A DNA stretch of 64,000 nt from Brevibacillus laterosporus LMG 15441 (lineage in GTDB: Bacteria; Bacillota; Bacilli; Brevibacillales; Brevibacillaceae). The DNA lies in assembly GCF_000219535.2 (NCBI RefSeq), contig NZ_CP007806.1:2576501-2640500 (forward strand). Reading direction: 5' to 3'. Positions 7,323 through 54,112 of the stretch are shown piece by piece (positions within the stretch are counted from its first letter, which is position 1; the number at the start of each line of letters is the position of its first letter). The notes beneath the pieces are model-generated. The model saw nothing but the letters and a program-made list of their open reading frames with translations. It was not told the DNA's origin and searched no databases. Made by a program: the position numbers and the translations under genes.

Positions 7323-10019
7323 TTAAGATTCTGGTGTACTGATGAACATTATAATTTTCTCTTCTGGGCGGCAATCAGCTAAGTAATGATCGAGCATTCC
7401 CAGATGTACTCCGCATTCACTTTCTAGAGAATCAGCTCCTATCATAATACTAGCCTGATGGGGACTGTTCTCTGGAGAACTAGTTATCGTATAATATTTC
7501 GGCTGAAGCGGGGGCAAAAGCTCGATAACCCTTTCGAAGGGCATCTCGCAGGCTTCATATTTTTCAAGCAGTTCTAGCATCGACACCCCGGTCTTCTCTA
7601 CCTGCTGTTCATAGACAACCTCATCTAATAAATCCTCCAATTCACGTTTATGTGGGGGACAAACCGTGTAAGCTGCAAGCTCATGTAGCTGTGCATGAGT
7701 TGCGGTTGCTTGCAGATCTACATTTTGACTCAGCAAATCATTAAGTCGTACTGGTCGATCCAGCGGAAGATGGGCTATGTTACGTCCATCTGCCCTCAAA
7801 ATCAAGGGATCGTTCCCGTTCAAGCCAAAGCGTTGTAAAATTCGTTCGACATGCTCCTTCCTATTTTTCGGTAATACCCCGATTTGATCCCCCTCCTGAT
7901 AGCTAAGACCATCTGGCAATGTGATTTCTACTTGCCGGATGCTTCGCCCACAATTAGCACTCTCCAGTTCCCGGTTTTCTGTTATATAGGCATAGACAGC
8001 ATTATACTTGAGGGCGAGCGGTACATCTGACATGTCATTCATAAATTGAATCGTAAGGGTTCCGTGATCTTTTTCCTCAAGGTTTTCCTGTAGAATAAAA
8101 GTCTCCATAACGTCAAGCCACATACGCTTCTGCCAGTCTTCTAATTGTTTTTCGAAGTCTCCGCTAGTGTCAGCTTCGCCTCGCAACGAAAGCCTTTTCG
8201 CTCCTTTTAAAGTAAGCTGCTCATCAATAAATCTCGGGACGTCTTGATAGGTATTTGCCCAATTGCGGTCTCCACATCCAAAAACCGCATACGTAACTCC
8301 TTGAAGCGCACCTGCCTCTACTCCTTCCAACCATTGCACGAATTTTCGGGCATTATTAGGGGGCTTTCCATTATAAGAAGCGGTAACAATCAGTACGACT
8401 CCCTCTTTCGGTAACTTCCCTAGCCAATCATCAAGCGGTGCCATCTCACTTCTGATACCGAGCAAACCCGCATTAGTAGAAAGCTCTCGTGCGGTACGCT
8501 CTGCTGTGCCTAAATTTGACCCATAAAGGATTAGTAAAGATACATGGTTGACCCTAGCTATGGATGTTTTAATCTGTTCCCATCTACTATCTGTCCCTCG
8601 TATGTTTACAGCTCCTACTTCTGGCTCTTGGGTAGATTGGTCTAGCTTCTGTTTCTTTCGCTGTTTGACACGTATGTAAAATTCTTCTGGTTTGATCGTT
8701 AATGTTTGTTGAATGCTTAACTGATAGTTCGTATGATCAATTAATTCAAAGTTCTGGAGAATCATACCTAGAACTAAAGTGGCTTCATGCAGTGCAAATT
8801 GCATCCCAATGCAGGCTCGTTGACCATTTCCAAAAGGTTTATAGGCATGATGGGGGACTTTATCAGGGTCCTCAAATCGCTCGGGGCAAAATTCATCAGC
8901 ATCATCTCCCCAAGCATCTTTATCTCGATGAAGTTGGGGTAAGAGTAATGCAACAACTTCGCCTTTTTTTATGGCATACTTCCCTCCAATGATTGTATCT
9001 GCCCGAGCGGTAAGTTCAAATCCCGGGGCTGTTGGCCATAAACGTAAGGATTCCTGTAAAATCATACGCACATATGTAAGTTGTAGAACCTGCTGATACG
9101 AAGGAGATACACCGGTTAATACCCGATCCACTTCCTGGTACGCTTTTTCTCGCACCTCTGGGTTTTTCAGCAAAAAATAGAGAGCAAATGATAATAAGCC
9201 GCTTGTTGTTTCATGTCCTGCTATTAAAAATGTGATGATTTGATACCGGATATTTTCGTCATCCAGTCTCTCTCCAGTTTGCGGGTCCTTCCCGTTAAGC
9301 ATGCGGGTGAGCAAATCGATTTCACCCTGATCGCCATTCACCTTTCGTTCCTCGATGATTTTGTCTACTAATGAAAACATCGTTTCAATATCTTGGGTAA
9401 ACTGACGTCTAGTTCCCACCATTAATGTATTTTGAATTTTCAATCTTCCACTCTGATGCATCGCTTCTTGAAGTGCGCGAACCATACTGTTGATAAAAGG
9501 GCTGTGTGTTTCTCTATAAAAACTATTAAAGCGATAATTAAAGCCGCATAACCCAATCGTATCCAATGTAAGTCGAGTCATATCGCCAGGAACATCTATA
9601 CTTTCATTAGGATTAAGACGTGCCCATTTTTGGATCAACTGCAAGGCAATATCCACCATCATTGAATGGTATCCTTTCATTGCTTGTTGACTAAAAGTAG
9701 GTAGGAGGATATTATGGGCCTTTTGCCAATTAGGCTCCTCAATCCTGCTCGTAAATAAACCATCTCCACTAAAGGCACGAACATTTTCCAAATCACCTGT
9801 AATGTTTTTGAAGAAACGCGACTCGTCACAAACCTCAGCCGCTAGTTTATGACCAGAAATAACCAAGCTTGAACTTCCAGAAAGGGTTAATCGGTAGATT
9901 GGACCGAACTCTTCTGCAAGTTTACAGAGTGAAAGTGTCGGTGTATCTTTTTCTATTAAGGGGTAATTGCCAAGCGGACCATACGTTTTGGGTTGCGGAA
10001 TATATCCTACTTCTTTCAT
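7323..10019 (-). CDS. CYP102-type P450-reductase fusion, C-terminally truncated
   Basis: A self-sufficient fatty-acid hydroxylase type (P450 BM3, B. subtilis CypB/CypD). The P450 part (~1-460) has AGHETTSG near 267 and the heme-ligand region [10 protein letters not shown] (Cys ~403). A flavodoxin-like FMN domain follows (~490-640, GSNLGTAE), then the start of the FAD domain (~660-898, YYTITSSP). Intact family members have about 1050 residues. This one stops at FISTPES, so the NADPH-binding lobe, including the GPGTGVAPFRGF region, is missing. Just after the stop another frame reads TPAIMV, resembling the family's TPIIMVG, and then similarity ends. This suggests a frameshift plus deletion. The P450 domain may still fold, but NADPH-driven self-sufficient turnover is unlikely. 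The ATG at 10019 is chosen over 10028 because AAAGGA lies 9 bases upstream. It is cotranscribed with the FatR-like gene upstream. Confidence 0.9.
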
Positions 10020-10084
10020 CACAAACATCCTTTCAGATTTATTCGCGAAAGTGTAGTTGCCCTGCTACGCATCATCAAATCTGC

Positions 10085-10657
10085 TTATGATTTTTCTTGT
10101 TTAAAACCATGATAAAGTGTGTCTAAAAGAAGTGACGCGGCCGATCTTTTCGCAATATGACCTTCTTGAACCTGCTGCCATGTCATAAAGAGAAGTGAGT
10201 ACAGGACATTCAAAATCCATTCGCTGTTCATATCGGCACGGAGGTAACCTTTGCGTTGCAATACCTGAATGGAGTGTCGAATAGGTTCCTTTACCTCCTC
10301 CTCAGCTTCCATCATCTCTTGACTGTAATACAGCGTAGATTCATGAGCTAGAAAATAAATCTTAGCCCCGAGTGGAATTAACGCCTCAATCAATTGTGAA
10401 ATATAGGATTCGATGTTTTCCTCGTCTAACGGAATTTGCTTTATCGTCTCTCTGAACACCTGAGAAGATCTTAATCCTAGTTGCAGGATCAATTGATCCC
10501 TATTTTCGATGTATCTGTGCAGAGTCGCAATGCCGATACCAGCGTATTCGGCAATTTCATTCAAAGATGCAGTTGGCTTTTCGACTAGTAATTCTGTAGC
10601 CGCATCCAAAATGGCATTAAGCCTAGCCTCCTTTGTCGCTGATCTGGCATTTTTCAT
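10085..10657 (-). CDS. TetR-family repressor, FatR/BM3R1-like
   Basis: 190 residues with an N-terminal TetR helix-turn-helix (~10-55; LNEIAEYAGIGIATLHRYIENR) and a helical effector domain. It lies directly upstream of the CYP102-type gene on the same strand (65-bp gap). This is the arrangement of B. subtilis fatR-cypB and B. megaterium bm3R1-BM3, where the repressor senses fatty acids and controls itself and the P450. Candidate operators (TGATAG half-sites) lie 40-65 bp upstream of the start. Family and role by synteny are well supported; fatty-acid sensing is inferred. Confidence 0.9.
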   Translation of the reverse strand: MKNARSATKEARLNAILDAATELLVEKPTASLNEIAEYAGIGIATLHRYIENRDQLILQLGLRSSQVFRETIKQIPLDEENIESYISQLIEALIPLGAKIYFLAHESTLYYSQEMMEAEEEVKEPIRHSIQVLQRKGYLRADMNSEWILNVLYSLLFMTWQQVQEGHIAKRSAASLLLDTLYHGFKQEKS

Positions 10658-15330: not shown

Positions 15331-15382
15331 AAAAAACAGCATTGAACCCCCTCTTTATCCAAGCTCGGTTCACACTGTTTTT
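15331..15382 (-). terminator. Terminator of the eight-gene isoprenoid operon
   Basis: AAACAG, four bases, GAACC at 15334-15348 pairs with GGTT(C)...CTGTTT at 15367-15380. A T-run follows on the minus strand. It lies about 130 bp past the P450 stop codon and marks the operon end. Confidence 0.8.
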
Positions 15383-15512: not shown

Positions 15513-16826
15513 TTACATCCGTTTATTTACAACCATATGCAAGGCTTTTGGGGATAGAGTTATCGAAGCGTTTACCTCTAGCTTGTCCTGATTAACTGCT
15601 GTTAGCTTGTAGCGTTGAACAATGGTAGCCAAAATCAACACGGCCTCTGCCATTGCAAATCGCTGTCCAATGCACATGCGCGGTCCACCGCCAAAGGGAA
15701 AGTAGACAAACGTCGGTAATTTTTTTTCAAGCCCATCTGCCCAGCGTTCTGGACGAAATACCAATGGGTCTTCAAAATAACGGGGATCACGGTGCATGAC
15801 ATACTGACTAACTAACACAATCGAATCTTTTGGAATCATATATTCGCCAATCTGAATGTCTTCTGCAGCCTGACGAAGCAAGATATAAGCTGGAGAACGA
15901 AGCCGGAGGGTCTCATTTACCACCATTGTGGTATATTGTAGATTTGGTAAATCTTGAATATGGGGTAAATGACCATCAAGCACTTCACTAATTTCAGCCG
16001 CCATTTTCTCTGTAACATCAGGATTTTCAGATAGAAGATAAAAAGCAAACGCCAGCGCTGCGCTTGTTGTCTCATGTCCTGCAACAATCAAGGTCATCAC
16101 TTCGTCGCGAATTTGACGATCATCAAGTCCTTCTCCATTTTCATCGCGCATGGAAAGAAGCATTCCTAACAAGTCATCTCCATATATACCTGATGATCTT
16201 CGTGAAGAAATTAACTGCAAAATCATGTCATCCATCTCTTTTGCACAGCGCTTATAGTTACTATAACCTGGAAGTGGTATAGGGAACATGACTGCCTTAG
16301 CGTAATACCTTAGAATCGTCTGCAAGGCCTGAATTAATTTTCCTTCGTCAATGGTGTTGTTATGTCCAAACAAACTTTTCATTACGACATCAAGTGCTAA
16401 ATTGAGCATATCGATCTTGATTTCGCGCGTTTCGCCTTCTTGCCAGTTCTCAATGTAACGATTCGTTACTTCAATGATCGTCTTTCCATAGCTTTCTATC
16501 CGTTTTTGGTGGAATTCCGGGGCCATCATCCGTCGGTTCCGAAGCCAATGCTCTCCGTTAGCGGTGAATAAACCTTCGCCTAAAATATTTTTGATAAGCT
16601 TTGCTTGTAATCGATCATTCTTTATAAAACTCGATTGTTTTTTGATAAATACTTCTTCTATAAGCTCCTGCTTATTTAATTGATAAATGCGTTCATTGAG
16701 CAACGGATAATACACGACGTCTCCATACTTGTCTGCGTTTTCCTTAATGAAATCCAGAATATTGTGCAGAGTACGGAACACGTTGTACAGAGGTTTATTT
16801 GGTCCAGGCGGAAGTGTAAGAATCAT
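15513..16826 (-). CDS. Cytochrome P450, last gene of the isoprenoid operon
   Basis: 437 residues. Helix-I oxygen-binding motif AGHETTSA near 248, ETLRLRSPAY near 305 (ExxR), and heme motif FGGGPRMCIGQRFA (Cys ~385). It starts at the N-terminal TLPPGP proline-rich hinge and belongs to the CYP102/CYP4-like class-II-type group; unlike the gene at 7323 it has no fused reductase. The ATG at 16826 is chosen because GGAGG lies 6 bases upstream; the longer frame would overlap the preceding gene. As the last gene of the operon it most likely hydroxylates or otherwise oxidises the operon's lipid product. Its redox partners are not encoded here. Confidence 0.93.
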   Translation of the reverse strand: MILTLPPGPNKPLYNVFRTLHNILDFIKENADKYGDVVYYPLLNERIYQLNKQELIEEVFIKKQSSFIKNDRLQAKLIKNILGEGLFTANGEHWLRNRRMMAPEFHQKRIESYGKTIIEVTNRYIENWQEGETREIKIDMLNLALDVVMKSLFGHNNTIDEGKLIQALQTILRYYAKAVMFPIPLPGYSNYKRCAKEMDDMILQLISSRRSSGIYGDDLLGMLLSMRDENGEGLDDRQIRDEVMTLIVAGHETTSAALAFAFYLLSENPDVTEKMAAEISEVLDGHLPHIQDLPNLQYTTMVVNETLRLRSPAYILLRQAAEDIQIGEYMIPKDSIVLVSQYVMHRDPRYFEDPLVFRPERWADGLEKKLPTFVYFPFGGGPRMCIGQRFAMAEAVLILATIVQRYKLTAVNQDKLEVNASITLSPKALHMVVNKRM

Positions 16827-16836
16827 AATGTCCTCC

Positions 16837-18435
16837 TCAAACGGAAATAGTTTGTTGCTCAAATTTTCCTTGTTCCAATGCCTTGTTCAAAAGACTATAA
16901 TCCACTTTTGCATTGTGCCGCTTATCAACTGGAATCTGATCCATATAGATAATGGCATCGAGGTTTGCCCATTCTAGCATTTCAGCTAATTCAGCAGTCA
17001 TGTAGCTCTTACTATTTCTTTCCACAATTAATACACGACGACCGCGATATTGTGTTAAAGCAGTTCGTCCGATCGACTCATCAAACGATAACACGCTCTC
17101 CACAGCAAAAGGGTACAAAACTCCCCTTTCATCTTTAATTCGTGCGGCTACTCTTCCCAGAAGCCATAATCTTCCCGATTGGTCAAAGTACCCAGCATCC
17201 CCGGTTCGATGCCAGACTGTTCCATCCACGCGGAATTTCGTCTCCTCATCTCCTCTTCCATGCAAATATCCGGAAAGTACATGTGGACCTGTGACCACAA
17301 TCTCTCCCGCTTCCTCAGGAGTCAGGCAGATGTTTTCAAATTCTGCACTGGATAAAGAACCAATCGGTTTGCCCCACTGATGACGAACAATCCGTACCTG
17401 AATCTCCGGAACAGGGGTTCCTACTAAAAGACCTTTTCCTGACTTGATTGCGGTAAGATCATTTGTATGGATATCGTTCCAATCTACTTCTGCAATTGGC
17501 TCAGCCTCGGTGGACCCATATACGGCCATTATGCGAGCGTTTGGAGCAATCCGTTTTAATCTGGACATGAGTCGTGGGAATACTGGTCCACCGCCACTGA
17601 AGATATATGTAAGCTCAGTTAGAACGATGTCATGTTTTTCACAGTATCCCAACAGTTGTTCAAAAAACGCTGGTGAAGCTACGATTCTCTGAGCATGTTG
17701 TTTTTGGAGCTGAGAAATGACGGGACCCGGTTCAATCGCTCCTGGCCGGCGCAGGTCACCATTGGGAATAATGCTCCTCATCCCAGCCCCAAGATTGCAC
17801 AGAGCAAAAATAGGTAGTGTTGTCATATCGATTGCTCCAGCTTGCATGTCAAGACTGCGCCGGAGCACCTCGTATTGATCAATTAAAAATCCATGAGTCC
17901 GCACGGTCGCCTTTGGCTCCCCAGTGCTACCGCTGGTAAAGGTGATGAGCGCCGGCGTGTCATGTTGACATGAGTGGTATTGACTGTACTCTGTTGCATT
18001 GGTTTGTGAAGTTAAAGAAATGGCTCCAGGCAATCTCCTCCCAATCACAAATTTTTGCGGAATTTTTCGAATAGCTGGGGATAACAGCCTCAATAGTTGG
18101 GCTTTTGGGCTTGCAATTAACGCTTTAGGTGGGTTTAATGTACAGCATCGTTCAATATGATTTTTACCAGCAGATGGATCAAGAAACATCGCAATCAATC
18201 CAAGTCTGAAGATTGCTACTAAGGTGATATACAACTCAATCGACATTGGATAAAAGAGTAGAACCGTATCGCCTGCCACTAACCCTTGTTTCTTGAAAAT
18301 CCCTGCGACTTGAGCAGAACGTTTGTCCAGATCGGCAAAAGTTAGTTGACGGGTCTCTTTGTCTGGCATATCCTGTATCGCGATCGCATTGGGGCAATTT
18401 TGAATATGAGGTTTGACAATTTCAAAGATATTCAT
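16837..18435 (-). CDS. AMP-dependent ligase, OleC-like
   Basis: 532 residues of the ANL superfamily. The P-loop is TFTSGSTGEPK (~165-175), the AMP site VYGSTEAEP (~300), the core RTGDAGYFDQSGRLWLLGR (~430) and the C-terminal segment VDKRHNAKVDYS, which carries the last lysine. RHNAK and the GPHVLSGYLHG, RTGDAGYFD and GVLYPFAVE blocks resemble OleC, which in olefin biosynthesis activates beta-hydroxy acids with ATP and forms a beta-lactone. No OleA, OleB or OleD is present. The enzyme could activate a carboxylic lipid precursor as an acyl-adenylate, either as substrate for the neighbouring GNAT protein or for lactonisation. It overlaps the GNAT gene by 4 bp and lies 10 bp from the P450. The superfamily is certain, the OleC assignment moderate. 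Confidence 0.85.
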   Translation of the reverse strand: MNIFEIVKPHIQNCPNAIAIQDMPDKETRQLTFADLDKRSAQVAGIFKKQGLVAGDTVLLFYPMSIELYITLVAIFRLGLIAMFLDPSAGKNHIERCCTLNPPKALIASPKAQLLRLLSPAIRKIPQKFVIGRRLPGAISLTSQTNATEYSQYHSCQHDTPALITFTSGSTGEPKATVRTHGFLIDQYEVLRRSLDMQAGAIDMTTLPIFALCNLGAGMRSIIPNGDLRRPGAIEPGPVISQLQKQHAQRIVASPAFFEQLLGYCEKHDIVLTELTYIFSGGGPVFPRLMSRLKRIAPNARIMAVYGSTEAEPIAEVDWNDIHTNDLTAIKSGKGLLVGTPVPEIQVRIVRHQWGKPIGSLSSAEFENICLTPEEAGEIVVTGPHVLSGYLHGRGDEETKFRVDGTVWHRTGDAGYFDQSGRLWLLGRVAARIKDERGVLYPFAVESVLSFDESIGRTALTQYRGRRVLIVERNSKSYMTAELAEMLEWANLDAIIYMDQIPVDKRHNAKVDYSLLNKALEQGKFEQQTISV

Positions 18436-19460
18436 GCTTCCCTCTCCAATTTCTTAGCAAATAAGGTGTAATCACGAAGAATGTAGCCTTCATTCGCATT
18501 AAACCTTGTGGATCGATTTTCTTGGATCATTAACGCATTAATCGCACGTTGATAACCTAGCTTCTGAGCCAAATCGTAGACTGCCTTTACGAGGAAGGAG
18601 CCTATTTTATACCCTTGGTAATCTGGATCAACAGCCAGCGTCTTTAAGATTACCTGATCGACCGCCTTTCCCATTTGGGCTTGCATCACATCTGGTAAGG
18701 TGAACATAAAGCCGACCAGTCGATCATCATGCTCGGCTAACAAAACCAGTTCTGGCTTAATATATGGAACAATCTTTGTGTATTGTTTCAAGAATTCATT
18801 TTCACTTATCTCGGTGTACAAAAAATTTTGATGAAAAGCTCGTATCGAGAGTTCATAGATTCGTGTAAGCTCTTCATCGATTCGAGTCAAATCCAACTGC
18901 CGGATACGAATGCCGCGTTCATTCATATGCTGTGTCAGTTGCTTGTACCGTTTTTTCTCATACTCCTGCCCCGCTTCGCCCAAATCTCTATGATCGAGAT
19001 CAACAATTCGCGAAATGTAGTGAGATAGCGGTTCAAAGCCATCCTGTGTAAAATGATCGGCCCATTCCAAGGGTGTATTTGGCTCAAGGAAGAAAGGAAG
19101 ATCTCCTTTTGTTTTCGTAACCAATCGGTGTGTCCCCCACGTATTTCCATCCATTGGGCCTATCACGATTGTACATCCCTTTTTAGCCAATTCTCTTGAA
19201 CACAGTTGTAGTAGCTCACTTGCTGCAGGAGCATTTCGCGCTGCATAGTGTCCTATTACACCAACCTGATGATCTTGATATGCTGGTACGTTTGACCACC
19301 ATAGTGAACAGCGTGCGGCTACGCCTTCCTTGTCTAGTATCATCCAGTGAGTATCAGCATTCGATTCGTCCAGAGAATCGATCCGATTTGCAGAAGGCCC
19401 TGGTAGTGAGCAAAACTCTTCCTTCATCTTGGTATTCGTAACCTGTACTGCTTTTAACAT
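18432..19460 (-). CDS. GNAT-fold acyltransferase, operon member
   Basis: 342 residues. The C-terminal third (~195-335) is a recognisable GNAT domain, with VGFMFTLPD and the acyl-CoA-binding loop LAVDPDYQGYKIGSFLV (~270-286), followed by NALMIQENRSTRFNANEGY. The N-terminal half looks like a second, degenerate GNAT-like lobe, with HYAARNAPAASELL and IGPMDGNTWGTHRL. Such double-lobe proteins transfer acyl groups to amines or hydroxyls. GGGAGG precedes the ATG and the stop overlaps the AMP-ligase start by 4 bp, so the two are coupled. It may acylate the amine introduced by the BtaA-like enzyme. That role is inference; the substrate is unknown. Confidence 0.85.
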   Translation of the reverse strand: MLKAVQVTNTKMKEEFCSLPGPSANRIDSLDESNADTHWMILDKEGVAARCSLWWSNVPAYQDHQVGVIGHYAARNAPAASELLQLCSRELAKKGCTIVIGPMDGNTWGTHRLVTKTKGDLPFFLEPNTPLEWADHFTQDGFEPLSHYISRIVDLDHRDLGEAGQEYEKKRYKQLTQHMNERGIRIRQLDLTRIDEELTRIYELSIRAFHQNFLYTEISENEFLKQYTKIVPYIKPELVLLAEHDDRLVGFMFTLPDVMQAQMGKAVDQVILKTLAVDPDYQGYKIGSFLVKAVYDLAQKLGYQRAINALMIQENRSTRFNANEGYILRDYTLFAKKLEREA

Positions 19461-19493
19461 GTCGAATATCCTCCCTACTCTTTTCGCTGATCA

Positions 19494-20813
19494 TTAAAAA
19501 AGCAGAATTCCCAAAATAGAACCAACCGCTGCGCATATTGGTTGGATTAATACGGCTGCCTTCGACCTTTTAAAGACAAAGAGATAGTAAATACCGCTGG
19601 CCATAAGCATGCTTACGGCCGCCCAAATCGAATGGACAACCACTTCGCTGCTCAGACCTGAACGAAGCACTAAAGCCGTCAATGTCAGCCCCCAGTTTTT
19701 CAAAATGTTTAAAAAAAGATAAATTAACAGATGCCTTTTCTGAGACGATTGAAAGATTTCCGTGAGACTAAAACAAATGGATTGGGCCAATAGACCGATC
19801 AGAAATGCGAAGAAAAAAACTTCACTTTGTGTTTGCTGGTACAAAAATAACCATACAAAACTCATTGTATATGTGGCGATGAATAGACCTATTTTTTTGC
19901 TGGAAAACAGCTCAGTTGAACTCTTCAAAATAATCGGCGATGACACGGAATGCAGCAGCAATACCACTAGAAAGTCTATTCCACCAATAGCCCAGCTCAC
20001 ATACGAAATGACTGATATTCCCATTAAAGCCTGTGGACACACGACCTTCGTTCTTCTGCATGCTTCAAGCAAGATAAACAGTAAGAGTGCTAGAGTGAGC
20101 GCCAACAGCAAATGGGCATTGTCCTTTACGATGAGAAACTTGAGCATCATAAAGCTCACAATTGGTACAACTAAATTATCCTTCCCGCCCCAGGAAACGG
20201 ACTCAGCTAAAGTGGCTAACAGTGACACTGTAATAGAAATCATTAAATTAGCCATTCCGTCCATCGGAAAAAACAAAAATAAGGTGATGTGAGTCGATAA
20301 AAAAGCAACTAAAAAGAAGGCAAATGACCCTTCTATGCTCTTCATACCCTCGGGAACTACGTATCTCACCTGACCGTAGCGAACGCCGACAAGAGCAGCG
20401 ATCGCATCAGCTAACGTGAGAATGATGAGAGAAATACTGTACAAAACCCGTTCTTCTTGTTCCGTAAAAAGGAGAAGAATCGCAATACTCATCACAAAGT
20501 ACATCTCACCAAATGAATAACGCGAAACATCAGATAAGATTTTTCCGGGTCCATTCTTTAGCCGAGTAACTCGGAAAAGAAATAGAACAATTGCGACAAA
20601 CCCTAAAACAACCAATACAGGCCAATCCTGACCAAAAAGCCATGGAGCAACCAATGCGAATGTACCAGAGCTCATATGAAAAAGCTTACGAACCCATTCT
20701 GGATCAGGCTGGTACCTGACCTGGTAAAAACGCAATCCTGCAATCAACAATGCTATGGCGGCAAGCAGCAGCACAATACCGAACCATGGATGTAAGGGAA
20801 TAATACCACTCAT
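19494..20813 (-). CDS. Phytol/dolichol kinase-like membrane protein with extra C-terminal membrane half
   Basis: 439 residues with about 12 hydrophobic segments. The N-terminal half (~1-225) has the CTP-dependent polyprenol kinase pattern of VTE5, SEC59 and related proteins: RKLFHMSSG near 42, TLADAIAALVGVRYG near 135, KSIEGSFAFF near 160 and WGGKDNLVVPIV near 208. Family members phosphorylate phytol, farnesol, dolichol or diacylglycerol at the membrane. The second half (~226-439) is membrane-embedded and I cannot assign it. Some organisms pair VTE5 with VTE6/DUF92, which makes the diphosphate, but the match is not convincing by eye. Beside HMG-CoA reductase and a UbiA-like protein, an isoprenol kinase supplying or salvaging a prenyl phosphate is the natural reading. 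It overlaps the upstream gene by 4 bp (ATGA). Confidence 0.82.
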   Translation of the reverse strand: MSGIIPLHPWFGIVLLLAAIALLIAGLRFYQVRYQPDPEWVRKLFHMSSGTFALVAPWLFGQDWPVLVVLGFVAIVLFLFRVTRLKNGPGKILSDVSRYSFGEMYFVMSIAILLLFTEQEERVLYSISLIILTLADAIAALVGVRYGQVRYVVPEGMKSIEGSFAFFLVAFLSTHITLFLFFPMDGMANLMISITVSLLATLAESVSWGGKDNLVVPIVSFMMLKFLIVKDNAHLLLALTLALLLFILLEACRRTKVVCPQALMGISVISYVSWAIGGIDFLVVLLLHSVSSPIILKSSTELFSSKKIGLFIATYTMSFVWLFLYQQTQSEVFFFAFLIGLLAQSICFSLTEIFQSSQKRHLLIYLFLNILKNWGLTLTALVLRSGLSSEVVVHSIWAAVSMLMASGIYYLFVFKRSKAAVLIQPICAAVGSILGILLF

Positions 20814-21952
20814 ATGATTTCCTCCAGTACAAACGCACTGTAAAAGAAAGCCTTATCCTGCTTAAAAAGTTCCTGACTCAAGCTGGTGAGTGGACGAAGT
20901 GACTCCTCCATGCTCACAGGGCGACTTCGGGGAACCAGCATATTCCAGTAAGCCAATCGTCCTTTTTTCCTCCCCGCTTGTACCAAAACCTTCAGTAAAT
21001 TTTCATATTGGTCTTCGGACATATATTCAAAAATGTCACTCAGATTGTACTTATCAAATGCGTTTTGGCCCACATGCTGTAAATACTCTTCAACTGATAA
21101 GCAATGCCATTCAATTCGATGCAGGTTGTTTCGTATAGCATCAAAATTTTCAGGTCTTAATGCATACGGTAATGCATGACTATGTCGTCCTTGTAAAATC
21201 CACTGGAGATAAGGATTTTGCATAGGATCAAGCTCAGTTAGGGCATATTGGGCTCTTTGTAAAATCCTTGCTGCCACACTGCCCTCTACATAGCGGAAAA
21301 AACGGGTATCACGCCCCAGCCTTCCCATGACAAATCGGGAAAAAAAGAACTGGAACATCAATCTCCAGCGTAACGTATTCCACTCTTTTTGATAAAATGT
21401 GCGGCGATCCTTTGGCGTGCGGTTCTGAAGAAGCTTTTCCACGCGAGAGCGAGAATGGACAAGAGGTAAGATTGAATCGCGAAACATTGAAAAATACTGC
21501 TCAAATTTCCCAATGCTTCCAATCCCAGATTCTATAGCGGTTGATTGAGAATCCCAATAGTTTTTTACTAGCGGTGTGAGCTGCTTGCGACATTTTTGGT
21601 ATAGTTCATTTCGCCGATTACTTGGGATCGAGCCCATAAGTTCTAACAGTTCAGTATGTGTCAGAGCAGAATAGGCTGCCACGCGTAATTCCAAGCAGGC
21701 AAGCTGTGCATGGCTCAAATCTAGTGCAACAACACGCTCTGGCGACTTGCTTAGCATCGCTAGTGCATTGTCACCAGAAGAGGCGATAGCTAAACAGTTA
21801 TCTCCAGGCTGAATATCTAGTGCCTCTAGGAGGATGTCAGCATCCTCCCAGCACTGGGCATAACGGATTAAGGAAAAGTCAACTTCGCTAGCTAGCTTGG
21901 GGCGCGCATCTATCGTTACTTTCTGGGCGAGATTTCCAATATTACTAGGCAC
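20810..21952 (-). CDS. BtaA/DUF3419-like SAM-dependent 3-amino-3-carboxypropyl transferase
   Basis: About 380 residues. It matches the BtaA/DUF3419 family: RYAQCWEDADILLEAL near 30, the SAM-binding IASSGDNALAML near 57 followed by VVALDLSHAQLACLELRVAA, and near the C-terminus YNLSDIFEYMSEDQYENLL. BtaA moves the 3-amino-3-carboxypropyl group of S-adenosylmethionine to the hydroxyl of diacylglycerol, the first step to betaine lipids. The second enzyme, the N-methyltransferase BtaB, is not present, so the product here would keep a free homoserine-type amine unless modified otherwise. The GTG at 21952 is chosen because GGAGGAGGG lies 8 bases upstream; it overlaps the end of the PEP-synthase-like gene by 8 bp. 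A longer ATG frame (22012) lacks that support. The acceptor lipid is unknown and may be isoprenoid. Confidence 0.87.
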   Translation of the reverse strand: MPSNIGNLAQKVTIDARPKLASEVDFSLIRYAQCWEDADILLEALDIQPGDNCLAIASSGDNALAMLSKSPERVVALDLSHAQLACLELRVAAYSALTHTELLELMGSIPSNRRNELYQKCRKQLTPLVKNYWDSQSTAIESGIGSIGKFEQYFSMFRDSILPLVHSRSRVEKLLQNRTPKDRRTFYQKEWNTLRWRLMFQFFFSRFVMGRLGRDTRFFRYVEGSVAARILQRAQYALTELDPMQNPYLQWILQGRHSHALPYALRPENFDAIRNNLHRIEWHCLSVEEYLQHVGQNAFDKYNLSDIFEYMSEDQYENLLKVLVQAGRKKGRLAYWNMLVPRSRPVSMEESLRPLTSLSQELFKQDKAFFYSAFVLEEII

Positions 21953-24623
21953 TGATCGATCCCTCCTCCGGGGTGATCTTACGAATGACCCCTGTACTAC
22001 CGTCAAATTCAACCCAATCTCCTGTTTTCAACCATCGAGTCAAACCAGTTACAGAAACGATTCCTGGAATACCAATCTCACGACAAACAATAGATACATG
22101 AGACAGCAGACTTCCTCGTTCGACCAACAATCCGGCTGCTGAGGAGAAAAGTACGATCCAGCCTGGATCAGTCCGCTCAGCTACAAGGATTTCTCCTGGA
22201 AGCAACGTCACATCACGGGGATCCGTAACCACACGAACCGGACCACGTACGACACCCGTCGCACAACCGATTCCTTTCATCACATCCCCTGTCAGTGGTT
22301 CTTTAGGGCTTTTCGCTTTAAACGTATTACCTTTATAAATGACGCCATACGTTTCAAAGCGATCCTCAGGCACATCCATTTCATGATATTTTTCAAATTC
22401 AGCTTTTCGCAATGCTACTAGTCCCTTTAGGTTGCTGCATGTTGCAGTTCCGTCTGCCATACCAAGCAATTCTCCCACTTCCAAATAGAATACATCGCGG
22501 GGATCGTCAAGCAGATCGAGTGCATAAAAGCGACGCCCCATTTCAAGAAAGATGGAACGGCAACGACCAAAGACTCGTGTTCGTTCGAATCGTAGGTTTT
22601 CCCGATCACGAACACGCAATCGCGCATTTTTAAGTACCCAGCGAAAAAGGACTCGACGAAACAGATTGAAGCCGATAGATTGAAATGCTTGCTCCTCTGC
22701 CATGCGTCTTATTTCTTCCTCGCTTGGTCCCATCTCAGTTGGGGCGGGACGGGATGCAAGATGGCCAATAGAGCGCAACAACGGAAGCGGGTTGTCAAAC
22801 AGATTAACGCTCTCTAGCTTGAGTTCATCCAAACAACGATCTCCGAATTTGTCCAAATAAGCCTCGTACTCTTCTTTAAATGCAGGGAATCGATCCATTT
22901 CCTTCATGATTTCTGCTAGAGTGCCATTGCAGAGGATGTCGATGAAGGTGGCATCTTGGTTCGTTAGCTTCATCAGCTTTTTCATACGCATTGCTGGTTC
23001 TGCACTGATAATGCCACCTTCTGCTGCGAGCAGTGAATTCTGTAGGGTAGAATCTTCATCATTGCACCATTTAGTCGTCAGCTTTCGCAATAAACCGTAG
23101 TAGATCATAGCTCCAAAATCATTAATCAATGGGGCATCCCAACGAGTTAGAAGCTGACCTTGTAGCTTCAGATAGTAGTTGGCTAGCTCGACTGTACTGT
23201 ATTGTTGCAGGTCTGGGCGTGTAATACCAAGCGCATTGTTTAAGCGTTGGTAAAAAACGTCGATCGTCTTTGGCAAACGTCTGAAATTGCCAATCAATTT
23301 AACAATTGTTTTACCAAGACGCATTGCATCCTTGAGTTTGTCTTGCATGCTCACCTGCTGTTGAACATTATCCGTCAGTTGCTGGGGAAGTGCTTCCTTA
23401 ACCCCCATCATCTGTTCCATAAAACCTCGATTCATTTGATAACCAGGAAGCAGTGCCAGACAACGATACCAGTTCAGCAGGTTGTAATACACTCGTCCAT
23501 TGACAAGGCCAATCATGCAACGGAACACGGAATCCCGATTAACAATCTCCTCAGCGGAAACCCCCATTATTCGGCAGAACGACTTGTATACCTCAGCATA
23601 AGCGTGACGGGCAAATGAAAATGTCAGGGGGGTTGTGATACCGCCATAGCTTTCTGAAATATTGCTGTTATCCCATAGATTAAACTCATCATCAGGGTCA
23701 ATCATCTCCGCTAAGTTGGTGATTGGACGTGATTGCAAGAGATAGAGCTTTCCATCCTGAATGGCCCACTCAATATCCTGGGGTCGTCCGAAATGGCGTT
23801 CGCAACGGCGGGCTAGCTCTGCAACTGATCGCACTAGTTCATCTGTAAGGGCTGGCTGATTTGCCTTCTCAACCGCTACCTCTTCACTCTCCACGCCCTC
23901 ATCGCTTTCCATTGAGAAACGATGCGCAATCAGCTTTGTCGCTATTTCACGCTCCACAATCTCCCCATTACGATTCACTTTATACGTGTCTGCATCGCAT
24001 TCTCCTGATACTAGCGCTGTTCCAAGCCCGTACAAGGCCCCCACGATGGCAATTTTTCTTTGTCCCGTCAAGGAATCTGCACTGAATGCTACCCCGGCTG
24101 TTTCTGAGTCAACCATTCGTTGGATAAGAACTGCGGGTGGCTGGGGCAGCAAGCTAAGCCCCTTTTCTTTTCGATAGGTCAAGATTCGTTGACTAAAGCC
24201 AGATCGCCAGACCTGAAGCACCTTAGCTGGCACATCCTCTGGTTTGACAAACAAGTAGCTTTCTAGCTGTCCAGCAAAGGAGTGTTCAGCCCCATCCTCA
24301 TCTAATGCAGAGGAACGGACAGCCACCAATTCATTATTTGCGCAAAGTATCTCAACTTCTTTTTTTAACATCGCCTCCACATTCGGTTCTAAAGTAATGT
24401 GCCTTAAAACCCGGGTGACTGCCTCTTCTGATTGAAGAACCGCTCCCTTTAACTCCTCCATAAGACTTTTTGGAACACTTTCCATAAAAGCCTCTGGTGT
24501 AAGAACAAACCACTCGGGAATCACCATACCTGCCTGTCCCAGCAAAGCGAGGGCACGAGCTTTACCGCCCATCTTTTGCAGCTCATTCTCCTCTGCACGG
24601 TTCATTTGTAAAATATACGTCAT
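21945..24623 (-). CDS. PEP-synthase/rifampicin-phosphotransferase-like enzyme
   Basis: 892 residues, three-part layout of the PEP synthase/PPDK/RPH family. The N-terminal ATP-grasp domain (~1-320) has GGKARALALL, AVRSSALDEDGAEHSFAGQ, IQRMV and DIEWAIQDGKLYLLQSRPIT. A long helical central region (~330-780) is followed by the swivelling phosphohistidine domain at the C-terminus (LLVERGSLLSHVSIVCRE, His ~842). The size and the absence of a PEP/pyruvate-binding TIM barrel fit rifampicin phosphotransferase, which uses ATP to phosphorylate a hydroxyl of the antibiotic. In this operon it probably phosphorylates, or couples phosphate to, a lipid or isoprenoid alcohol; antibiotic inactivation is the alternative. 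AAAGGAGG lies 9 bases upstream of the ATG. Confidence 0.88.
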   Translation of the reverse strand: MTYILQMNRAEENELQKMGGKARALALLGQAGMVIPEWFVLTPEAFMESVPKSLMEELKGAVLQSEEAVTRVLRHITLEPNVEAMLKKEVEILCANNELVAVRSSALDEDGAEHSFAGQLESYLFVKPEDVPAKVLQVWRSGFSQRILTYRKEKGLSLLPQPPAVLIQRMVDSETAGVAFSADSLTGQRKIAIVGALYGLGTALVSGECDADTYKVNRNGEIVEREIATKLIAHRFSMESDEGVESEEVAVEKANQPALTDELVRSVAELARRCERHFGRPQDIEWAIQDGKLYLLQSRPITNLAEMIDPDDEFNLWDNSNISESYGGITTPLTFSFARHAYAEVYKSFCRIMGVSAEEIVNRDSVFRCMIGLVNGRVYYNLLNWYRCLALLPGYQMNRGFMEQMMGVKEALPQQLTDNVQQQVSMQDKLKDAMRLGKTIVKLIGNFRRLPKTIDVFYQRLNNALGITRPDLQQYSTVELANYYLKLQGQLLTRWDAPLINDFGAMIYYGLLRKLTTKWCNDEDSTLQNSLLAAEGGIISAEPAMRMKKLMKLTNQDATFIDILCNGTLAEIMKEMDRFPAFKEEYEAYLDKFGDRCLDELKLESVNLFDNPLPLLRSIGHLASRPAPTEMGPSEEEIRRMAEEQAFQSIGFNLFRRVLFRWVLKNARLRVRDRENLRFERTRVFGRCRSIFLEMGRRFYALDLLDDPRDVFYLEVGELLGMADGTATCSNLKGLVALRKAEFEKYHEMDVPEDRFETYGVIYKGNTFKAKSPKEPLTGDVMKGIGCATGVVRGPVRVVTDPRDVTLLPGEILVAERTDPGWIVLFSSAAGLLVERGSLLSHVSIVCREIGIPGIVSVTGLTRWLKTGDWVEFDGSTGVIRKITPEEGSISA

Positions 24624-24644
24624 GTGCTATAACCTCCTTTTCAC

Positions 24645-25571
24645 CTAAAATAAAAGTGGAACAAGTCCCAGGCTAAGATACAGCAAAATAATGAGTAGAC
24701 CCGAAACTTTTTCTATAGCCTGTGCTACTTTCGTTGTCATAGATTTAAGAAACGTCACTGCCATCCAAACTGCGATCAGCACATTTAATCCAGCACACCA
24801 CATCACGATTTGGCCAGCGCCCACTTGTACGGAAGCCATCCAAACCACGAAAGATGTCAAAAACACAACGGCCACCCATATCCAGGTTGCCCTTTTGTAG
24901 CCCCACAAAAAGCTGTAGGTCTCGACACCATATTCCTCATCCTCGGGGATTCGAATCTTGCGCCCGATCTCCAGAATGATTCCGTTTCCGTAGCTGGCTA
25001 GTAAAAGCCAAGGAAGCCCAGAAGGAATTGTATCTGAAGCTGTCACCCAGTCGCATGCCACGATATACATCACAATCATCGGCATCATTACCATATGGGA
25101 CAGCAGGTAAATAATTGGGTGAGCTTTTAACCATTCCTTGACAAAAAATTCCTTACTCATTAAAGCTAGATAGCCCCATGCAAGCACTAACCAAAAAATA
25201 AGCTTTGGAGACAACCAATATGCCATACCAAGTTGAAGAAGTCCTATGAAAACACCAAGCACTCCGAGATGCTTCAGGGTTACAACCCCACGCGGAACAG
25301 CCCGATACGAACGAAATCGGGAGTCTTCCTCAAAGTCCTTAAATTCATCAGCAATGCGCAACAGCAAAAAGAACAAAAAAGTCGACAAGAAACCAATTAC
25401 AAGCGACTGGAAACTGGGTGAAGACCCGTTTCTCAGAATAGAAGAGTAAAGCATCGTAGATATACTGAATACAGCGACCACGATTCCATTTTGAACAACG
25501 GGAAATCTCTCCCGCTGATAAATCCACCAACGTCTCGACCAAGAAAGCTGTTGATAGCTCACATTAGACAT
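24645..25571 (-). CDS. UbiA-superfamily prenyltransferase-like membrane protein
   Basis: 308 residues, about 8-9 hydrophobic helices. The first Asp-rich motif is RIADEFKDFEED (~72-83) in place of the usual NDxxDxxxD. The second is altered: EIGRKIRIPEDEEYG (~200-215). UbiA enzymes bind a prenyl diphosphate through Mg2+ held by these acidic motifs and transfer it to an aromatic or other acceptor, or in some cases cyclise it. The ATG overlaps the HMG-CoA reductase stop by 8 bp. No aromatic-acid pathway is encoded nearby, so the acceptor may be non-aromatic. The superfamily is clear; activity and substrate are not. Confidence 0.87.
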   Translation of the reverse strand: MSNVSYQQLSWSRRWWIYQRERFPVVQNGIVVAVFSISTMLYSSILRNGSSPSFQSLVIGFLSTFLFFLLLRIADEFKDFEEDSRFRSYRAVPRGVVTLKHLGVLGVFIGLLQLGMAYWLSPKLIFWLVLAWGYLALMSKEFFVKEWLKAHPIIYLLSHMVMMPMIVMYIVACDWVTASDTIPSGLPWLLLASYGNGIILEIGRKIRIPEDEEYGVETYSFLWGYKRATWIWVAVVFLTSFVVWMASVQVGAGQIVMWCAGLNVLIAVWMAVTFLKSMTTKVAQAIEKVSGLLIILLYLSLGLVPLLF

Positions 25572-26862
25572 ATTGCTTCACCATCCCTTGAGCTGTTCCA
25601 TCTGTGCCACGAGAAAGCTTATGATGGGCTCTAGTAAAATCATCAGCGGCCAATGCCGCAATGATCGACAGTTCCCCGGCTAAAACTAGACCGGCACATA
25701 CCTCCGCAAGCGCGTGTACATGTCCAGCACCTGAAAGTCCCATAATTTCAAGGCATGCCTTTTGACTCGGCAACCCTGTACCTCCGCCCACCGTACCCAC
25801 AATAACATTCGGTAACGTTATCGATGCATACAGGTCCCCATTTTCTGTTAGTTCGAATCGTGTAACGCCAACGGACGATTCAGATACACAAGCAACGTCT
25901 TGTCCTGTTGCTAGATACAAGGCAGCCAAACCATTAGCTACGTGACCTTGGGAACCAATCATACCTTGCAGAACTCCACCTACAAATGCCATTCTCCAGT
26001 ACTTTTCCATATTTTCAGGAGTAGTGTGGAAGCGTTGGCGAACCAATTTTGCAGGTAATACCACTTCAGCACAAACCTTTTTCCCTCTCACGGTCATGAA
26101 AGATTTTGCAGAAGCTTTCTTGTCTCCCGAAAAGTTCGCTTCAACAAAGCTATTCTTGAACGGAACTGGTGAATGCTGTCGAATATAGTTGCAGATTTCT
26201 TGTGTTGCGATCGTTACCATGTTTTGTCCAGATGCGTCTCCAGTTGAAAACTCGAAAATAAGATACACGTAGTTACCCTCGATCATATGATCCATTCTAA
26301 TAAGCTGCCCAAAGTTTGTTGTACTCTGGGCAACCTCGCGGAAGGTATCAAATTCAAAAACCGCCCAGTTAGCAAATCGACTCGCCTCTACTACGCTCTC
26401 AAAGATAAAGCCAGGGGTCCTCCCAATCGCTTCTTTCAAAATCACTGTTCTGCATCCACCTGCTTGGCTAATGACCTGCGCACCACGACTATAAGAAGCT
26501 ACGAGAGCAGCCTCGGTAGTAGCTAAAGGAATATAGTAATCACCTTGGGCATAAAGACCATTGATCCGTAAAGGACCAGCCAAGCCTACCGGGATACTGA
26601 CAGTGCCAATCAGATTCTCAATGTTTTTTTGATACAACTCAAGTTGGTCTACGGTTTGATTGCCTAGTAATTGTTCCTTGGCCTCAGGTCGAACCGACAG
26701 TAATTCCCATCTAGACTCGATAGCTTTGGACGAAACTCTTGCTCCCCCGGGTACACGTTTTGGAAGGGGGCTATCGTTGGTAGCAAAATGCTCCTGATAT
26801 AGATTGTCATCAACACTACGCAGCATGTGATTATCTACTTTTTTACTAGTTGAACATTTCAT
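25564..26862 (-). CDS. Class I HMG-CoA reductase, first gene of the operon
   Basis: 432 residues. It makes mevalonate from HMG-CoA with two NADPH. Family signatures: ENLIGTVSIPVGLAGP (~82-97), TTEAALVASYSRG (Glu117), STGDASGQNM (~206), GDKKASAKS (Lys248), GQDVA (Asp322), GTVGGGTGLP (~356) and the C-terminal His413 in AHHKLSRG. These supply the catalytic Glu, Lys, Asp and His set. The DKK and GQD arrangement is class I-like. The ATG at 26862 has AAAGGAG 8 bases upstream; the frame extends 54 codons further but without support. No other mevalonate-pathway gene is in the window, so mevalonate either feeds a pathway encoded elsewhere or is itself a building block. This gene heads the eight-gene operon. 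Confidence 0.95.
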   Translation of the reverse strand: MKCSTSKKVDNHMLRSVDDNLYQEHFATNDSPLPKRVPGGARVSSKAIESRWELLSVRPEAKEQLLGNQTVDQLELYQKNIENLIGTVSIPVGLAGPLRINGLYAQGDYYIPLATTEAALVASYSRGAQVISQAGGCRTVILKEAIGRTPGFIFESVVEASRFANWAVFEFDTFREVAQSTTNFGQLIRMDHMIEGNYVYLIFEFSTGDASGQNMVTIATQEICNYIRQHSPVPFKNSFVEANFSGDKKASAKSFMTVRGKKVCAEVVLPAKLVRQRFHTTPENMEKYWRMAFVGGVLQGMIGSQGHVANGLAALYLATGQDVACVSESSVGVTRFELTENGDLYASITLPNVIVGTVGGGTGLPSQKACLEIMGLSGAGHVHALAEVCAGLVLAGELSIIAALAADDFTRAHHKLSRGTDGTAQGMVKQYV

Positions 26863-27783
26863 TGTTTTATCTCCTTTGCAATATGGTACTGGTATAGTTC
26901 TAGAATCATTTAAATGAGCCTCTCCCAAGCTTTTTTGCGAATGGAGAGCCTCTGGATGAAAGAGCTGCATAAAATTTTCAATATTAGCAAAATTCCTGTC
27001 ATAAGAAACCAGTACCAAGCACAATTTATACTACTATCCAAATGAATAGCCTTGCTTTTTGTCTATCTTTGCCTATCAGATTCAATATGATTGTTTCTCT
27101 TGTTCAAAAAACTGGTGTTTTACGCTACATTTTTCTTATCCTAAGTGGGTTGTATGGGATTAGTTCGCTCCTTAAAAACCCAATTAAGAAATTTCTATTA
27201 ATTCAAGCGACAACGATACAATTTTATAAACCTAGTAAGCAAATCTGACTCACAAAAAACGGACCGCTGAATCTGCTAGAAATGAGTGAATTACGCAATA
27301 ACAAAAATCATTTTCCACACAAAAATGAGTTATTACAAAAAATTAAACAATGCGAAACTGCTAGAAAAGCTATTATTCCTCCTCTCTTTAGGGAATCTAT
27401 TCTGAACACTTAAAATTACCCTTGCTGAATACTAGCACAATATGTCAAAAAATACAACTTTTTGTAATTCCCACTTCCTGAACATAGTAAGCCCACATTC
27501 TTATTCACAAGACATGCAATCCTAACCTTTTTCTTAGAACAAGATAAGCTCACAGCAATATATTGATACTGGGATTCTTTGCTTGTTTCTGGAAAAACGT
27601 TACACCTTAAATGTAAATCAAGTTTCTTTTTACATAATATATATTTTTTTACAATTTATTGACATTTAGTAACATTCTTTTTCACTTTTTTCACTTTCAA
27701 ATGTAATTCGACTACAAGTAACAAGCAACAGTGCTTTCCCTGCCTATCTAAGAACAGGAAGAAAGAACTGATTTGTACAAAAA
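26863..27783. other. Long AT-rich region upstream of the HMG-CoA reductase operon
   Basis: About 920 bp without a convincing gene; the frame at 27042-27248 has no ribosome site or recognisable product. Structures seen: a palindrome TCATTTAAATGA at 26906-26917; TGGTACTGGT at 26884-26893 with its exact reverse complement at 27008-27017; and TTTTTGTAATT-like elements near 27332-27344 and 27459-27470. The operon promoter must lie here but I cannot place it with confidence. Confidence 0.5.
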
Positions 27784-35082: not shown

Positions 35083-35136
35083 GCTTGTTCGCCCTCCTAA
35101 ACAGGTTATATTTTCGGTAAAAAACACAACTCAAAC

Positions 35137-35177: not shown

Positions 35178-35258
35178 CCGAACAAGCAGTGAATATACTT
35201 GTACAACTGCCACAGCTATCTAACACCTCCCTATCTCCCGTAGGTCACACAGTGTTGT

Positions 35259-35434
35259 TGAAATAGGCAGGTCTCCTGACTTAAGAATCCACATCAGCAC
35301 ATACCTTCCCAATCCTTCGTTGATCAGTGGTTTTTTTGTACTGACTCCTCTTTTACAGTGGCGGGACCGTGACGGATTTACACCGTGCTTCCCTTTTCAT
35401 CCTTGACACTCATTGTTCAAAGAACCTATTTCCA
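35259..35434 (-). ncRNA. Cobalamin (adenosylcobalamin-type) riboswitch
   Basis: The minus strand carries the class hallmarks in order: GGGAAGCACGGTG, AAATCCGTCACGGTCCCGCC, the invariant GCCACTGT (near 35354-35361) and, at the 3' end, the B12 box GTCAGGAGACCTGCC (35266-35280). It precedes metE, so bound cobalamin should favour the following terminator and shut down the B12-independent enzyme. Similar leaders on metE are known in other Bacillales. Confidence 0.95.
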
Positions 35435-35741
35435 CATATTTAATTCATCCATATCACCAAGATAATACCTAACCTTTATTCTAGGTATGCTTGCTATCAT
35501 AATATAACTTCACATAAAATTCCATATTTTTATTTAATTCAGTTTCCTATTGTCGCAGGAAGACTTCTGCCACTTCCATGGCAAACTGAATTTTGCCCGC
35601 CCTTTGTACCACTGCTCGCCCTTTTTGTCAAATTGCACGGAAAAAGGGGAATTCCTTCTCTTTTTACCTATGTTTTCTGTTCTACTCTCCTTGTCCAATT
35701 GATAAGCATATAAGGACATCTACAGGAAAGGAGGCAATCAT

Positions 35742-54097: not shown

Positions 54098-54112
54098 CTG
54101 AAACCTCCGAAT

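Follow-up and report, generated by a model that had tools for sequence, protein, structure and literature searches.

A conserved seven-gene cassette in Brevibacillus laterosporus and other bacteria, with a possible role in aminolipid synthesis

An eight-gene operon in Brevibacillus laterosporus

We analyzed a 64,000-nucleotide stretch of the Brevibacillus laterosporus LMG 15441 genome (contig NZ_CP007806.1, positions 2,576,501 to 2,640,500; hereafter, the window), focusing on eight tightly packed open frames on its minus strand (26862..15513) that are flanked by two hairpins with T-runs. Seven of them make up a cassette that recurs in other phyla, comprising genes for a 3-hydroxy-3-methylglutaryl coenzyme A (HMG-CoA) reductase-like enzyme (HMGR), a UbiA prenyltransferase, a rifampin phosphotransferase (RPH)-like "phosphoenolpyruvate (PEP) synthase" (PEPS), a DUF3419 protein, a VTE5/DUF92-like kinase, a GNAT, and an AMP-ligase. 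The features are as follows.

26863..27782, minus strand: presumed promoter region, the leader that separates the HMGR gene from the FecCD terminator
25564..26862, minus strand: HMG-CoA-reductase-like enzyme; catalytic residues retained, presumed HMG-carboxylate contacts S684 and K735 replaced
24645..25571, minus strand: UbiA-superfamily prenyltransferase, from its profile match and acidic motif
21945..24623, minus strand: probable RPH-type ATP-dependent alcohol phosphotransferase; family models call it PEP synthase
20810..21952, minus strand: DUF3419/BtaA-like protein, expected to transfer 3-amino-3-carboxypropyl from S-adenosylmethionine (SAM)
19494..20813, minus strand: hydrophobic protein with distant similarity to VTE5, dolichol kinase, and DUF92; putative kinase of prenols or fatty alcohols, lacking its second half in some loci
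18432..19460, minus strand: GNAT N-acyltransferase; GNAT match in second half
16837..18435, minus strand: AMP-forming acyl ligase, distantly OleC-like
15513..16826, minus strand: cytochrome P450, added locally (present in 8 of 80 loci) and outside the conserved set
15335..15379, minus strand: terminator-like hairpin and T-run after the operon

With starts based on Shine-Dalgarno sequences, the frames overlap by 8, 8, 4, and 4 bp or are separated by gaps of 21, 33, and 10 bp. The likely starts of the HMGR, DUF3419, and P450 genes are an ATG at 26862, a GTG at 21952, and an ATG at 16826, preceded by the Shine-Dalgarno sequences AAAGGAGAT, GGAGGAGGG, and GAGGAGG, respectively. A preliminary description of this DNA had proposed a one-strand, eight-gene operon, which was borne out across 26862..15513. 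The packing that it gave (overlaps of 4–8 bp, gaps of <35 bp) also holds in general, except that the P450 gene does not overlap the ligase gene, from which it is separated by the 10-bp gap. The single clear terminator that it reported corresponds to a hairpin with a T-run located 3' of the P450 gene at about 15379–15335 (-15.7 kcal/mol, z -3.8), although a simple terminator scan did not list this hairpin. Upstream, the FecCD genes end in a hairpin of their own (27812–27783; z -3.7).

In profile searches, the operon proteins scored 392 bits (HMG-CoA_red), 54 bits (UbiA; cut-off, 34), 222 and 72 bits (PPDK_N and PEP-utilizers), 240 bits (DUF3419), 44.5 bits (GNAT), 168 bits (AMP-binding), and 317 bits (P450). 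The families had been named in the same way before, and two of those names need qualification: the "PEP-synthase-like" enzyme is better described as an RPH-type alcohol phosphotransferase, and the VTE5-like protein of the window has no match in Pfam (at an E value of 0.001) or NCBIfam.

The operon is also present in B. laterosporus MSSRFCCT15 (contig NZ_JAUKFY010000006.1; 96% identity in DUF3419). The DUF3419 gene was found in three of five Brevibacillus genomes, being absent from G001 and G003, and an empty-site comparison revealed no close match to the flanking WYL gene in relatives that lack the operon. We rejected the GC content of the operon (0.42–0.47) as a sign of transfer, because it is equally high in the window beyond 40 kb.

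Conservation of the cassette across phyla

With an alignment of four DUF3419 sequences as the query, a scan of 84,980 species genomes uncovered at least 510 related stretches, not all of which are cassettes, and the best 80 were examined. DUF3419 is present in all 80 loci by search design, and many loci are cut by contig ends. Its companions are PEPS (77 loci), VTE5 (71), UbiA (66), GNAT (65), the ligase (63), HMGR (55), and P450 (8). Since the companion genes are conserved across the 80 loci, chance assembly of the operon is excluded; the P450, which had been counted as an operon member, is present locally but stands outside the core. Whole or partial cassettes occur in 15 phyla, and all seven genes were found together in 46 loci from 10 phyla (according to record titles). 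The DUF3419 proteins of the cassette loci share 45–67% identity with that of the window.

After loci with short flanks were excluded, gene order was assessed in 49 of the 80 loci. The order HMGR-UbiA-PEPS-DUF3419-VTE5-GNAT-ligase was displayed by 27, and GNAT-ligase-HMGR-UbiA-PEPS-DUF3419-VTE5 by a further 10, so that 37 of the 49 carry all seven genes in either order; in the remaining 12, genes are absent or moved. In a few of the ordered loci other frames are interspersed, and the cassette is not always gapless, as at L067, where the GNAT-ligase pair lies 7.6 kb off. A profile search of 51 loci (slightly looser flank limits) detected UbiA, PEPS, and DUF3419 in all 51, the ligase in 49, GNAT in 48, VTE5 in 46, and HMGR in 43. 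Indeed, a plasmid of the alphaproteobacterium Roseinatronobacter sp. S2 carries UbiA, PEPS, DUF3419, VTE5-like, GNAT, and ligase genes in the same order as the window, with HMGR ahead of the cassette across the record start. The preliminary description had asked whether HMGR, UbiA, PEP-synthase-like, and DUF3419 genes co-occur across genomes or lie scattered; in the close family, the cassette is syntenic across phyla.

The genes also appear to have been inherited together. Protein distances in 46 loci were correlated for all 21 gene pairs (r = 0.69–0.91; 0 of 999 permutations as high), a comparison that is uncorrected for host phylogeny and excludes the diverged or split cassettes L051 and L066. 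A grouping of 1,012 neighboring frames revealed no family beyond the seven genes in more than 8 loci, and a six-frame repeat revealed no extra family in more than 9 of 80, the most frequent being ABC-transporter ATPases and P450s (including a member at L090); these negatives rest on the six-frame profiles, as frame picking overlooks genes in GC-rich DNA. A tree of DUF3419 proteins (67 rows, two of them without a phylum label; only frames of 340–450 amino acids, from 66 of the 80 loci) carried 15 phylum labels and needed 27 label changes against a minimum of 14, which fits transfer between phyla, with the qualification that contamination of metagenome-assembled genomes (MAGs) and paralogy can inflate such changes. 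We consider it almost certain that the cassette is a real, single, undescribed biosynthetic unit.

Two observations concern individual cassettes. Long frames had suggested fusions of the UbiA-PEPS, DUF3419-VTE5, and GNAT-ligase type; for L077 these were rejected as out-of-phase overlaps in GC-rich DNA, and the remaining candidates do not enter the analysis. In Microseira wollei, a radical SAM/SPASM gene and two frames that match no Pfam family lie ahead of a cassette that lacks HMGR (L084:3415-6132).

Linkage was also followed into more distant DUF3419 relatives. Among 398 Bacillota genomes, this DUF3419 type occurs in the LMG 15441 genome and in two others at 44% identity. Of 292 Cyanobacteriota (center genome included), 5 have a DUF3419 at 57% identity or more, one at 49%, and eleven at 33–39%, and of 284 Planctomycetota (center genome included), 4 have one at 54% or more and nine at 43% or more. 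Six-frame profiles were applied to a diverged set of 20 loci (L194–L213), with L199, L200, L210, and L212 being short contigs. In three diverged genomes of the cyanobacterial phylum (L194–L196), the order UbiA-PEPS-DUF3419-VTE5-GNAT-ligase is kept, and HMGR is not in the stretch. DUF3419 is accompanied by UbiA and PEPS, often rearranged, at L197–L200, L202, and L204; by PEPS (362 bits) at L208; by VTE5 only at L210; by the ligase and a weak UbiA at L211; and by PEPS, ligase, and GNAT without UbiA at L201. The other seven loci (L203, L205, L206, L207, L209, L212, and L213) have no other clear cassette gene. The survey therefore indicates a strong linkage within the close family that weakens with distance. 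In addition, other DUF3419 genes of the Brevibacillus family (23–30% identity; 7 stretches) have no neighbor matching the cassette profiles, and one of these stretches contains a GNAT-like neighbor barely under the Pfam cut-off (20.0 versus 20.7 bits). In the DUF3419 match of G002, stop codons fall ahead of the likely start. At L201:9977-11137, in a genome of the cyanobacterial phylum, an AurF-type oxygenase lies between PEPS and the diverged DUF3419 gene.

Enzymes of the cassette

The cassette enzymes belong to known families, and the novelty lies in their assembly, in the HMGR variant, and in the presumed product. Family alignments comprised 28–40 hand-picked full-length frames each. In the 30 HMGRs compared (that of the window and 29 of 39 full-length frames), E559, R590, D690, K691, K692, D767, and H866 (human numbering) are retained throughout, S684 is replaced by E in all 30, and K735 is replaced in all 30 (by M in 23, V in 3, I in 2, A in 1, and L in 1). 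We take S684 and K735 to be the residues that hold the HMG carboxylate, and the substrate of the cassette enzyme seems, from these replacements, to have changed. The cassette HMGR thus shares its family and the catalytic E559, K691, D767, and H866 with class I HMG-CoA reductases (human, archaeal 6hr7) and differs from them in E684, a hydrophobic residue at 735, a separate tree group, and hosts that mostly lack the mevalonate pathway.

More specifically, HMG-CoA synthase (PF01154) scored over the cut-off in three of 29 genomes, namely G002, G496, and the cassette-free G001 (L112 is not among the genomes in these counts), with LMG 15441 itself scoring 24.3 bits against a cut-off of 25. DXR, which marks the methylerythritol phosphate (MEP) pathway, was found in 27 of 29. 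Mevalonate-diphosphate decarboxylase exceeded its cut-off in one of 27 genomes (G491), alternative decarboxylases lying outside this search; the G491 cassette has no HMGR, and the genome has neither DXR nor HMGR. Because the hosts use the MEP pathway and nearly all lack both HMG-CoA synthase and the decarboxylase, the cassette HMGR very probably does not supply mevalonate.

Among 398 Pseudomonadota genomes, full-length HMGR matches fell into a top group (9 genomes, 630–733 bits), with E or D at 684 and M or V at 735 in all nine; a middle group (9 genomes, 365–400 bits), in which K735 is lost in the nine loci read and S684 is kept in five; and a canonical low group (3 genomes, 233–252 bits), with S684 and K735 in all three; 14 further genomes had weak partial matches. 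In the HMGR tree, human, archaeal, and low-group enzymes split from all others (support 98/91), and the cassette and top-group enzymes come together (100/100). UbiA adjoins HMGR only in the Methylomonas center of the top group; the other eight are orphans, which share the tree group and the altered S684/K735 of the cassette and have no cassette around them (L172–L179, from G768, G582, G759, G698, G842, G848, G614, and G868). The orphans at L174, L176, and L178 adjoin members of one gene family; the member at L174, the one scanned, is a LuxQ-type kinase. The neighbors of non-cassette HMGRs (a transporter, LysR, a LuxQ-type kinase, a helicase, and others) gave no function, nor did the open-access literature matches listed for the orphan HMGR of Pseudomonadota. 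The cassette provides these orphan homologues of mevalonate-free bacteria with a context and with a testable altered substrate.

A link between the reductase and a kinase is suggested by two Bacillota of one family (G193 and G303), in which DUF3419 adjoins a 918-amino-acid HMGR::EcKL/APH kinase fusion (L192:7970-10726 and L193:6270-9026). The two loci are near-identical and therefore represent one event, and neither UbiA nor PEPS lies within their stretches. The HMGR half is non-canonical (D684, A735) and forms a very long branch in the HMGR tree, and the kinase half has what we take to be the HND...N and D motifs of the ecdysteroid-kinase-like/APH type. Moreover, 3 of 51 loci lack both HMGR and VTE5 (p = 0.023 by Fisher's test, without tree correction). 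The fusion and the joint absence suggest that the reductase and kinase belong together, with the reductase feeding the kinase.

RPH enzymes convert their substrates to an alcohol phosphate, AMP, and Pi. The cassette PEPS does not reach the cut-off of any listed NCBIfam PEP-synthase model (the best score is 787 bits, against a cut-off of 883), and among solved proteins rifampin phosphotransferase is closest to it (359 bits). The entries behind this match are titled phosphoenolpyruvate synthase and appear, from matching residue numbers, to be the RPH-Lm of PMC4844700, excerpts of which give the RPH residues R666, E667, K670, and H825. These correspond to R674, E675, R678, and H842 of the cassette protein (numbering counted by hand on the alignment), which are invariant in 28 of 28 members, K670 being conservatively replaced by R. 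Both ends of the protein match the RPH profile, whereas the middle (substrate) part is unmatched. The cassette PEPS is thus probably an RPH-type alcohol phosphotransferase, as judged from these residues.

In UbiA, the acidic motif D75, E76, D79, and D83 is invariant in 30 members, and the best solved match, a weak one, is an archaeal ether-lipid synthase (E = 9.5e-5). The VTE5-like family has nine invariant positions in 40 members (E39, R42, K43, H46, D136, K158, G162, D212, and N213), a pattern that we take to resemble dolichol/phytol kinases. Two of the 40 match TIGR00297 weakly, and none matches CTP_transf at an E value of 0.05; L063 and L085 have only the first half of the protein, and the window probe found matches of just 21–32% in the 398 Bacillota. 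Acetyltransf_1 is matched by 31 of 32 GNAT members and N-myristoyltransferase by 2 of 32. The ligase, in which K510, presumably part of an A10-like motif, is invariant, scored 253 and 229 bits against two NCBI OleC models (cut-offs, 900 and 850) and fell under the cut-off of prodigiosin ligase PigC/RedH models as well (322 versus 1300 and 314 versus 1350 bits).

A candidate aminolipid pathway and its alternatives

Our best model is a horizontally spread, self-contained cassette that makes an undescribed amphiphilic aminolipid. We put the chances that the product is a membrane or amphiphilic aminolipid at about even; the full order of steps, which we infer along with the substrates from the enzyme families, is more tentative than that. 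The AMP-ligase would convert a hydrophobic acid to an acyl-CoA, and the HMGR-like enzyme would reduce a CoA thioester other than HMG-CoA to an alcohol. The alcohol would be phosphorylated by the ATP-dependent RPH-type enzyme and the VTE5-like kinase, possibly twice to give a diphosphate. UbiA would join an acceptor to an isoprenyl or comparable chain, DUF3419 would add a 3-amino-3-carboxypropyl group from SAM, and GNAT would acylate the amine, each cassette enzyme being used once; in Brevibacillus, the P450 presumably oxidizes the product. The lipid-type chemistry of the preliminary description is supported. Of its individual steps, the phosphorylation of a prenol, the acylation, and the transfer of prenyl and aminocarboxypropyl groups remain plausible. 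Its first step, mevalonate supply, did not hold up, given the hosts' pathways and the replaced S684 and K735, and its beta-lactone lipid gained no positive evidence, the ligase being far under both OleC cut-offs.

Several results weigh against this model. Of 10 genomes whose cassette lacks HMGR, most of them MAGs, 8 have no HMGR anywhere in the genome (in G511, a different HMGR lies on a separate contig and scores 58 bits against the cassette profile; in G510, a diverged HMGR follows the ligase), and the HMGR-less cassettes therefore imply that the reductive step is optional. Conversely, 8 of the 9 Pseudomonadota genomes with a cassette-type HMGR have no cassette gene in the 1.5-kb flanks, and eight 16.5-kb stretches around the orphans contain a single cassette-like gene, a 208-bit PEPS-like one. 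The DUF3419 genes of Planctomycetota L205, L206, L209, and L213 (37–48% identity to the window) have no other cassette gene in the 15–19 kb searched. In addition, the VTE5 assignment is weak (6 of 40 members match DUF92, at best with an E value of 5e-4), UbiA may instead cyclize terpenes or act on a different acceptor, and the DUF3419 function is transferred from BtaA.

An alternative that retains the aminolipid, and that we regard as improbable, is a ceramide-like lipid on a homoserine skeleton, made without sphingolipid enzymes and spread across phyla by gene transfer. DUF3419 would attach the aminocarboxypropyl group to an alkyl or isoprenoid chain, and GNAT would N-acylate it; the ligase and altered HMGR would reduce the carboxyl to a primary alcohol, with E684 facing the nitrogen rather than a carboxylate, and the kinases would phosphorylate that alcohol to yield a two-tailed N-acyl amino-alcohol phosphate. 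A more serious competitor to our aminolipid model, although still unlikely, is a prenylated secreted natural product (a signal, antibiotic, or metallophore) with the aminocarboxypropyl group in a small polar scaffold and P450 tailoring. The patchy distribution in the genus, the spread between phyla, the P450 adjoining 8 of 80 loci, the ABC-transporter ATPases in the vicinity of as many as 9 of 80, and the FecCD iron-uptake genes upstream in the window all fit such a product. However, ABC ATPases are abundant genes without a fixed adjacent place, nothing else recurs, a terminator-like hairpin separates FecCD, and membrane-type enzymes with an N-acyltransferase suit a membrane product.

The cassette might instead serve acid-to-alcohol salvage, in which the ligase, HMGR-like reductase, and two kinases turn scavenged prenyl or branched acids into prenyl diphosphates for UbiA, and DUF3419 and GNAT merely modify the end product. 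According to excerpts of PMC9782597, polyprenol salvage uses two kinases in series, a precedent matched by the two kinase types of the cassette; the HMGR-kinase fusion fits as well. The cassette is distantly similar to VTE5, FOLK, and VTE6 of phytol/polyprenol salvage in its DUF92 matches and two-kinase logic, and differs from them in its RPH-type second kinase and the lack of a CTP_transf match. DUF3419 is well conserved for a mere modifier, though in all loci by search design, and the fused Bacillota stretches lack UbiA and PEPS, leaving salvage with a small probability. Marginally less probable is a betaine-lipid variant, in which DUF3419 would act on a UbiA-made ether glycerolipid, as BtaA does on diacylglycerol, and acylation by GNAT would take the place of methylation by BtaB. 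BtaA transfers the aminocarboxypropyl group of SAM to a lipid hydroxyl. BtaA/BtaB synthesis shares the DUF3419 family (240 bits here) with the cassette, and the UbiA match to archaeal ether-lipid synthase points the same way; the cassette differs in having GNAT in place of BtaB and five further enzymes. No methyltransferase of the BtaB type recurs beside it (by neighbor grouping only, with no genome-wide search), nor does any other methyltransferase or a glycerol-phosphate enzyme, and HMGR and the RPH-type kinase would go unexplained. The idea least favored is a cassette that supplies mevalonate for an ordinary terpenoid: HMGR is clearly homologous to class I enzymes, retains every catalytic residue, and adjoins UbiA, yet the mevalonate enzymes missing from most hosts, their MEP pathway, and the loss of S684 and K735 in all 30 enzymes make this very improbable.

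The preliminary description had recognized no described pathway with this gene set, and we likewise found none, of the set or of its parts as such a pathway, in the open-access literature, where long match lists were covered at the top only; a prior description in subscription papers or preprints is possible. The titles of the four open-access papers that mention DUF3419 point to work on algae, plants, an anther smut, and a very small eukaryote. Lipocone neighborhoods were rejected as a match, the excerpted part of PMC12419801 presenting different gene sets. OleABCD olefin/beta-lactone synthesis resembles the cassette through the ligase and is set apart by the distance of that ligase from the 900-bit cut-off and by the absence of further recurring families beside the cassette (OleA, OleB, and OleD were not searched by name). 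The cassette is a biosynthetic unit that seems to be undescribed, with further candidates among the at least 510 stretches, and its small size makes it attractive for the discovery of a new class of lipids.

Elsewhere in the window, a P450 fused to flavodoxin and FAD domains lies at 7323-10028, next to a TetR-type gene (10085-10657). A cobalamin riboswitch (127.7 bits; 35249-35444, minus strand) precedes a 779-amino-acid frame (32788-35127), and two very large minus-strand frames at 46319-63796 (2592 and 3227 amino acids) perhaps encode nonribosomal peptide synthetases, judging by size.

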